NCBI GenBank assembly: GCA_015272325.1
Contig: JACYLU010000002.1
Span: forward strand, 372,001 to 436,000
Direction: 5' to 3'
Length of the DNA stretch: 64,000 bases
From: Synechococcales cyanobacterium C42_A2020_086
GTDB lineage: Bacteria > Cyanobacteriota > Cyanobacteriia > Elainellales > Elainellaceae
The notes beneath the pieces are model-generated. The model saw nothing but the letters and a program-made list of their open reading frames with translations, was not told the DNA's origin and searched no databases. Below are positions 19,464-20,823 of the stretch, piece by piece (the first letter of the stretch is position 1; each line of letters begins with the position of its first letter). Position numbers and translations under genes: made by a program.

Positions 19464-20333
19464 ATGACCAAACATTTGTTTGCCACTATTGTCACTGCGA
19501 CTGCTATTGCTGCCAACAATCGAGGTGAAGGAGACGGTAGTACCCTGTCAACGCTGCAAAAAATCACGCGCGGCAATGACCAATACACCACCGTGAGCGC
19601 CGAGGCAATTCGCTGGGGATTGCGGGAGTATTTTCAAAATCACTGTGAGGCTGAAACTAACCGTACATTCGATCCCGATGTGGATAAGTACAGCTTTAAG
19701 AAGGAGCAGTTTAACGCTGAAGAGTACATTGACGATGACCTATTCGGCTATATGGATGCTAAGAAAGGCAAAGACAACGAAGATGCCACAACCAAGCGGC
19801 GGGGTGCTCTAGAAGTTAGCCGCGCCATCAGCCTTGACCCCTACTGGGGTGACGTTGCCTTTGGCTCTAAAGGCGGCGAAAAGGGCAAAACGTCGATCCA
19901 CAGCACTGAAGTTCACTGCACGGCTTACCAATACACCATTGCCCTCACCCCAGAGAGTCTAAAGAAACCAGAACGTGCTCTACTAGCACTGGATGCCATT
20001 GGCGCTGTGCGTCATGTGGGTGGTAACCATGCTCGCTTTTTGTATGACTTCCGCCCGGAGTCTATTGTCATTCGCATTACCGATGATCCCAGCCCTTGGA
20101 TTATGGATGTCTTCAAGCGAGTTGGTGATTCGGTAGGCTGTCCCCGCTTGGTTCGGTTGGTTGAAGTGGGTGATGTCCAAGCTGGCGAACTGATGGTGGG
20201 CGGCGAAATTGCTGATTCGCCCTATGGCGAGCAGTTGGGCAATTTGGGAGTCGGAGTTTATCGTGGAGTCAAAGAAGCGATCGCGGCAGCCAAGCGAAAG
20301 CTAATGATTCCGTCAAAGGAGCCTGCACAATGA
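19464..20333 (+). CDS. cas7: Cas7 backbone protein (DevR/Cst2 family)
   Basis: 289 residues from ATG 19464, which has AAGGAGA 9 bases upstream (the frame is open back to 19404). The N-terminus [25 protein letters not shown] and the [10 protein letters not shown] segment match the DevR/Cst2 Cas7 group. Several copies should wrap the crRNA in Cascade. The stop codon overlaps the start of the antitoxin gene (ATGA), so cas7 and the toxin-antitoxin pair are translationally coupled. Confidence 0.88.
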
Positions 20334-20566
20334 GTTCCCTATCTGTTTCTCGCGAAGTCTTGGATGGTATCACTGCTCTAGCCCAGCAGTTTAACTTGTC
20401 CCCTGAGGAGTTGCTGACTCAAATGATTCAGGGCAAGTTGGTGATTATTGACGCTGATGAGCTAGAAGACTTGCTGGATGTGAAAGACGCCATCCTTGCA
20501 GAAGCCGATCCGGAAAATCAGGAACGAGTTACCTGGGAAGACGTCAAGCAGGAGTTGAACCTGTGA
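20330..20566 (+). CDS. Antitoxin of a RelE-type toxin-antitoxin pair
   Basis: 78 residues. The N-terminal half ([31 protein letters not shown]) looks like a ribbon-helix-helix DNA-binding segment. The acidic C-terminal half ([26 protein letters not shown]) is typical of the toxin-neutralising part of RelB/ParD/CopG antitoxins. It overlaps the cas7 stop by 4 bases and the toxin start by 4 bases. Its position inside a cas operon is unusual. Confidence 0.82.
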
Positions 20567-20823
20567 GCCGTTATCGGATTGAGTTTTTGAAAACAGCCCA
20601 AAAGGAACTGCTTAAACTTCCGCAGGATGTTCAACGACGCATTGCAGCCAAAATTGATGCCCTTGCGATGGATCCTTATCCTCCAGACAGCAAAAGGCTG
20701 AAAAACGGAAATGGGCGCTTGCGGATACGAGTGGGAGACTACCGTGTCATTTACCGTCTTGAGGAAGACCGGTTGGTCATCTTAGTTATCAAAATTGGTC
20801 ATCGTCGTGATGTTTACAGGTAA
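20563..20823 (+). CDS. RelE/ParE-family toxin
   Basis: 86 residues with the full RelE-type core: [20 protein letters not shown], then [20 protein letters not shown] and the C-terminal IGHRRDVYR. Family members are ribosome-dependent mRNA endonucleases or gyrase poisons; the basic Arg-rich strand ([10 protein letters not shown]) favours the RelE type. It starts with GTG at 20563, overlapping the antitoxin stop, and ends 18 bases before cas5. No frameshift is visible. Confidence 0.88.

Follow-up and report, generated by a model that had tools for sequence, protein, structure and literature searches.

The modules known to guard CRISPR-Cas systems silence their toxins with crRNA-like RNAs: in CreTA, CreR and CrePA, crRNA-like guides link toxins or the expression of cas genes to Cascade, and in CrePA it is a protein toxin that is held under Cascade-crRNA-like repression (PMC12737573). 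A 2025 review of the coupling between toxin-antitoxin and CRISPR systems asks whether other toxin-antitoxin types also cooperate with CRISPR-Cas (PMC12737573). Toxin-antitoxin pairs within type I cas loci had already been reported in 2013 ('Expanding the catalog of cas genes with metagenomes', PMC3936711); the accessible part of that article includes a Phd/YefM-PIN pair in Nostoc PCC 7107 and takes such pairs to couple immunity to dormancy. The pair described here, located between cas7 and cas5 of a cyanobacterial operon, resembles those of the 2013 catalogue, which are protein pairs within type I loci and mostly on the cas strand, but the accessible text of the catalogue describes no RelBE or MntA-HepT case, no recurrent cas7-cas5 slot and neither turnover nor recombination (PMC3936711). 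We likewise found no description of such a slot or its turnover in the literature covered, which took in few subscription papers. As far as the accessible text of the corresponding articles goes (PMC9458426, PMC10097628, PMC12737573), CreTA and CrePA are alike in linking a toxin locus to a type I cas operon in a manner that could make the operon addictive. Their antitoxin, however, is a crRNA-like guide together with Cascade, whereas the pair here has a protein antitoxin, and the search for a guide target found none; membership of CrePA was rejected for these two reasons and because the toxin is RelE-like rather than KilA-N-type. With the RelBE type II family (2khe, 3g5o, 1wmi, 4fxe/4v7k) the pair shares toxin sequence, predicted fold, the R61/R81/Y87 positions, antitoxin-first order and overlapping frames, but it differs from known RelBE modules in lying inside a cas operon, in having no recognisable promoter of its own and in an antitoxin that scores below the family cut-offs.

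The window, by which we mean the whole 64,000-nucleotide stretch analysed, carries a complete type I-B/MYXAN system with all expected genes and an array, and this is the host operon of the pair. The gene order is WYL, Cas6/Cmx6, Cas3, Cas8a1/Cmx1, Cas7/DevR, the pair, Cas5/DevS, Cas4-Cas1, Cas2 and array (Table 1). The pair sits exactly where the first-pass annotation had placed it, and the tight junctions that it described were confirmed: the cas7 stop codon (20331-20333) lies on the antitoxin ATG in a 4-nt overlap (ATGA), antitoxin and toxin also overlap by 4 nt (GTGA), and 18 nt separate the toxin from cas5. Comparison with relatives corrected the start of cas7 to 19464 from 19404. Only this locus and its closest relative (genome G004) have the cas7/antitoxin overlap. 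Elsewhere in the main RelBE cluster, a short leader carrying a Shine-Dalgarno-like GGAG separates the cas7 stop from the antitoxin; in the window and G004 the cas7 frame extends into this leader, which accounts for the overlap. A consensus-only scan returned no promoter-like site on the + strand from 16.9 to 22.1 kb, and an Rfam scan of the window gave nothing at gathering thresholds. Both the overlaps and the promoter scan are consistent with the earlier proposal that the pair is translated as part of the operon and lacks its own promoter, as a reading at the level of sequence. Toxin and antitoxin are each present in a single copy in their own genome, with no other close copy in a search at E 1e-3. 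Far from the array, one isolated site in the window (33072-33088) matches the core of the CRISPR repeat at 15 of 17 positions.

Table 1. Features of the cas operon, the embedded pair and their surroundings, in window coordinates
Feature	Position	Strand	Basis
WYL-domain regulator, upstream of operon	13637..14623	+	family matches
cas6/cmx6	14751..15413	+	family matches
cas3 (HD + helicase)	15403..17670	+	family matches
cas8a1/cmx1	17682..19196	+	family matches
Recombinant tract common to window and G004/L022	19241..20880		23 mismatches/1640 bp
cas7/cst2/devR	19464..20333	+	family matches; start set by relatives
RelB-like antitoxin, 78 aa, ATG start	20330..20566	+	ORF call, homologues in same slot, RelB_like E 0.003
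RelE-family toxin, 86 aa, GTG start	20563..20823	+	Pfam/NCBIfam, PDB sequence matches, predicted fold
cas5/cmx5/devS, ATG at 20842	20842..21519	+	family matches
cas4-cas1 fusion	22326..23987	+	family matches
cas2	23996..24289	+	translation and homology
CRISPR array, 55 repeats of GTGAGCCAACCTTAGATGCCGCAAGGCGTTGAGCAC	24552..28453	+	repeat detection

The RelE-type call made for the toxin was borne out by its sequence, by the alignment of its catalytic residues and by its predicted fold. Its Pfam match was ParE_toxin (3.8e-14), a model that spans the RelE/ParE superfamily, its NCBIfam match was RelE_StbE (2.4e-05, slightly below cut-off), and its matches among PDB sequences were of the RelE family (T. 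thermophilus 2khe, M. tuberculosis 3g5o, P. horikoshii 1wmi and E. coli 4v7k/4fxe). When the toxin was aligned to ribosome-bound E. coli RelE (4v7k), R61 and R81 coincided, Y85 corresponded to E. coli Y87, and K52/K54 were replaced by R54/R56; the R61, R81, Y85 and R54/R56 positions were invariant in six aligned embedded toxins. We take the catalytic role of R61, R81, Y87 and K52/K54 in E. coli RelE to be established. The AlphaFold2 model of the toxin (pLDDT 82) gave RelE, YoeB and YafQ as its best Foldseek matches, with ParE structures ranking lower and appearing only from E 2.7e-3. The toxin is a RelE-family protein with a RelE fold, as modelled, and with mRNA-interferase residues from which that activity is predicted. 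The identity as a ParE gyrase poison suggested by the Pfam name was rejected on the PDB sequence matches to RelE and the lower ranking of ParE by fold. The antitoxin produced weak, sub-threshold family matches, of which NCBIfam RelB_like (E 0.003) was one, and one of its relatives weakly matches a ribbon-helix-helix model. Homologues 74-79% identical to it occupy the same slot of other operons, and the two co-encoded proteins are conserved together.

To place the pair among related operons, we gathered homologues of Cas5 across GTDB-species genomes and read the cas7-cas5 junction in each, with the lineage defined by a Cas5 ~62% or more identical to that of the window (50 non-redundant loci with cas7 and cas5). 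The junction holds a toxin-antitoxin module or its remnant in 15 of these loci (30%). In the other 35, cas7 and cas5 abut, mostly through TAATG or a 5-nt gap and at most 86 nt apart, and all lineage gaps longer than 150 bp contain a module or remnant. Four unrelated families were recognised in the slot by Pfam and NCBIfam, comprising RelBE (eight intact, in the window, L022, L025, L028, L030, L031, L038 and L126, and one decayed, L032), VapBC with a PIN toxin (n = 3; L046, L128, L158), MntA-HepT, a nucleotidyltransferase with a HEPN RNase (L131 intact, L047 decayed), and DUF433/DUF5615 (n = 1; L051). The VapB-like antitoxins had no family match and were assigned by position. In every case the module lies on the operon strand. 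At L051 the slot contains, besides the DUF433/DUF5615 pair, a RelB-like antitoxin without a toxin and a duplication of the first ~29 cas5 codons, and is a scar of successive insertions. L158, with a toxin annotated 'PIN domain protein', is carried on a mobilizable plasmid (plasmid 3) of Synechococcus sp. NIES-970. L036 was left out of the count: its cas5 is an orphan that has no cas7 and is preceded by a HEPN remnant. The sister I-B lineage, whose Cas5 is ~40% identical, had no module at this junction in any of the 58 loci that contain cas7. The first-pass statement that such pairs are not common has to be qualified, given a share of 30% in the present lineage, none in the sister lineage and the earlier reports of pairs in cas loci. 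Several genomes of genus g46, family f18 (L145, L132, L179, L180, L181, L185), also retain broken relics of cas5 that have neither a cas7 next to them nor, as far as was seen, a RelBE-like pair alongside.

Because unrelated pairs recur in one slot, a single chance insertion was ruled out. The first-pass annotation had held that related loci without the pair, together with an inactive toxin, would point to chance; 35 of the 50 loci do lack it, but the toxins retain their catalytic residues and evolve under purifying selection. Where synonymous sites were unsaturated, dN/dS was 0.07-0.20 for the toxin and 0.05-0.18 for the antitoxin, compared with 0.06-0.14 for cas5. These values, well below 1, imply that the embedded proteins, toxin included, are maintained for function.

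Our preferred reading, to which we give not quite an even chance, is that a type II RelBE-family module contributes two extra cistrons to the I-B cas operon and makes loss of that operon costly. Since the consensus scan found no promoter-like site, the neighbouring frames overlap and no close second copy exists, the supply of antitoxin appears tied to transcription of the cas operon, and antitoxin would be produced only while the operon is transcribed. Were the operon to be silenced, interrupted upstream, or lost through deletion or replacement, the antitoxin, presumably the less stable partner, would decay first and no longer neutralise the toxin; the freed RelE mRNA interferase would then be expected to cut ribosome-bound mRNA and arrest growth. 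A module of this kind would penalise operon loss and could spread through homologous recombination in the flanking cas7 and cas5 genes. As an alternative to dependence on the cas promoter, the antitoxin could be autoregulated from a site inside cas7.

Turnover of modules is visible in the history of the slot. On the Cas5+Cas7 tree, at least nine changes of presence or absence and at least 12 changes of module type were required, with RelBE and VapBC interleaved in one well supported four-member clade. The changes are phylogenetically clumped and perhaps represent 5-6 independent acquisitions. The embedded RelBE pairs form two clusters among stand-alone relatives in the tree of the pairs, where a single clade of embedded pairs was not rejected (p-AU 0.17). 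L028 with L032, and L030 with L031, are grouped in both the pair tree and the Cas tree, and the modules have therefore been partly co-inherited with the operon. The window pair is DNA-identical to that of L022 in G004, which belongs to another genus of the same family. The tract common to both (Table 1) is 98.6% identical over 1.64 kb with zero mismatches from 20297 to 20840, and identity outside it falls to ~90% upstream and about 70-78% downstream. Judged from this tract, the pair most likely moved together with its flanking cas genes through homologous recombination. In a comparison of cas-gene integrity with and without a pair, meant as a test of addiction but based on uneven assemblies, L038 has an apparent stop in cas8 and an intact pair, which counts against operon guarding.

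A strong rival is selfish hitch-hiking, in which modules that move widely in cyanobacteria persist at this junction because it tolerates short cistrons on the operon strand that leave translation downstream unbroken. The modules would addict the cell to themselves with no gain for CRISPR immunity or maintenance. We rate this explanation somewhat below operon guarding. Patchy presence and fast turnover agree with it, the patchiness being explained as well as by operon guarding. The pair is dispensable, a point against operon guarding, since 70% of the lineage lacks one and two pairs have decayed (L032, L047) in operons whose cas genes are largely intact. Other genomes also carry homologous RelBE pairs that are not near cas genes, RelE homologues were detected in 125 of 386 sampled genomes of the cyanobacterial phylum, and other mobile small genes, of the DUF559 type, accumulate between cas8 and cas7. 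What hitch-hiking does not readily account for is position: within the effector operon, modules were found only at the cas7-cas5 junction and nothing else was found there, though other junctions accept other small genes. In a subset of lineage operons used as a position control, with denominators that differ by junction, a toxin-antitoxin module was present at cas7-cas5 in 14 of 40, and recognised modules were present in 0 of 30 at cas3-cas8 and 0 of 37 at cas8-cas7 (Fisher P 3e-5 and 1e-4 for cas7-cas5 against the other junctions, values that ignore shared ancestry). No insertion was seen between cas6 and cas3 (0/26). At cas3-cas8, gaps longer than 150 nt occurred in 9 of 30 operons, mostly of ~500 nt with small ORFs; these inserts were rejected as toxin-antitoxin modules because representative ORFs showed no match to a toxin-antitoxin family. 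At cas8-cas7, 6 of 37 operons had either a DUF559 nuclease gene, whole or as a remnant, or a short gap left unassigned. The boundary between effector and adaptation genes, cas5-cas1, is loose and its contents are mixed, with some toxin-antitoxin genes as well as Uma2 genes.

Several of these insertions recur in recognisable form. An ~85-aa ORF with a start like M-x-x-EQLTLLDHAT follows ~200-300 nt of non-coding sequence between cas3 and cas8 in L029, L031, L034, L039 and L050, and a second, unrelated small ORF occupies the same junction in L021, L027 and L030; representatives of these ORFs gave no convincing Pfam match. Full DUF559 genes lie between cas8 and cas7 in L020, L028 and L039, and the window retains a remnant of such a gene at that junction (19225-19326), adjoining a cyanobacterial palindromic repeat. 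Between its cas5 and cas4-cas1 genes the window also contains a 72-aa fragment of a Uma2-family nuclease (21608-21826), where several relatives have fuller Uma2-like genes.

The same anatomy as in operon-guarding addiction could also serve a back-up abortive response, which the first-pass annotation had named beside addiction. Here phage take-over, or phage-encoded inhibition of CRISPR, would lower cas expression and so release the toxin, and the resulting growth arrest would protect the population. CrePA, in which an inhibited Cascade derepresses a protein toxin, offers a precedent in principle (PMC12737573). We judge this role unlikely, as none of the present observations ties the module to the activity of Cascade as opposed to expression of the operon, and blocking Cascade with a protein inhibitor would not on its own exhaust the antitoxin. 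Still less probable, to the point of being remote, is a dosage device in which the main effect of the inserted cistrons is to set the abundant Cas7 apart from Cas5, the single-copy subunit, and to reduce Cas5 translation, the identity of the module being incidental. Insertion does break the coupling of cas7 and cas5, which abut in loci without a pair, but a dosage role leaves both the toxin-antitoxin-only content of the slot and purifying selection on the toxin unexplained. Weakest of all is control in the manner of CreTA or CreR, by which a solo degenerate repeat (21536-21573), diverged but with its stem-loop intact and placed directly after cas5 on the operon strand, would give a crRNA-like guide for Cascade repression of the cas operon or the toxin; we rejected it because no seed-like match at the 10-of-12 level was found for the sequence downstream of the repeat, whether ahead of the WYL gene or cas6, near the cas promoter, or at the pair, because the pair's antitoxin is a protein, and because the repeat is closer to the array repeats of relatives (ACCTCTGAT; L012, L013, L015) than to the window's own array, as a relic would be.

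Addiction to the operon, the reading that we prefer for the window pair, can be extended to the lineage, where we propose more guardedly, and with some doubt, that the cas7-cas5 junction of cyanobacterial I-B operons may be a dedicated exchangeable slot in which modules of any family serve as interchangeable guards that impose a cost when the operon is lost or shut down, the protein equivalent of CreTA. Where known guarding modules rely on crRNA-like RNAs to silence the toxin, the module in the window has a protein antitoxin. Independent uptake of several unrelated protein modules at one operon position would make it a natural experiment on cooperation between toxin-antitoxin and CRISPR systems. 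Matched operons exist in which the module is intact, absent or decayed, and one of them is on a plasmid, so that retention, exchange and the outcome of phage infection can be directly compared.
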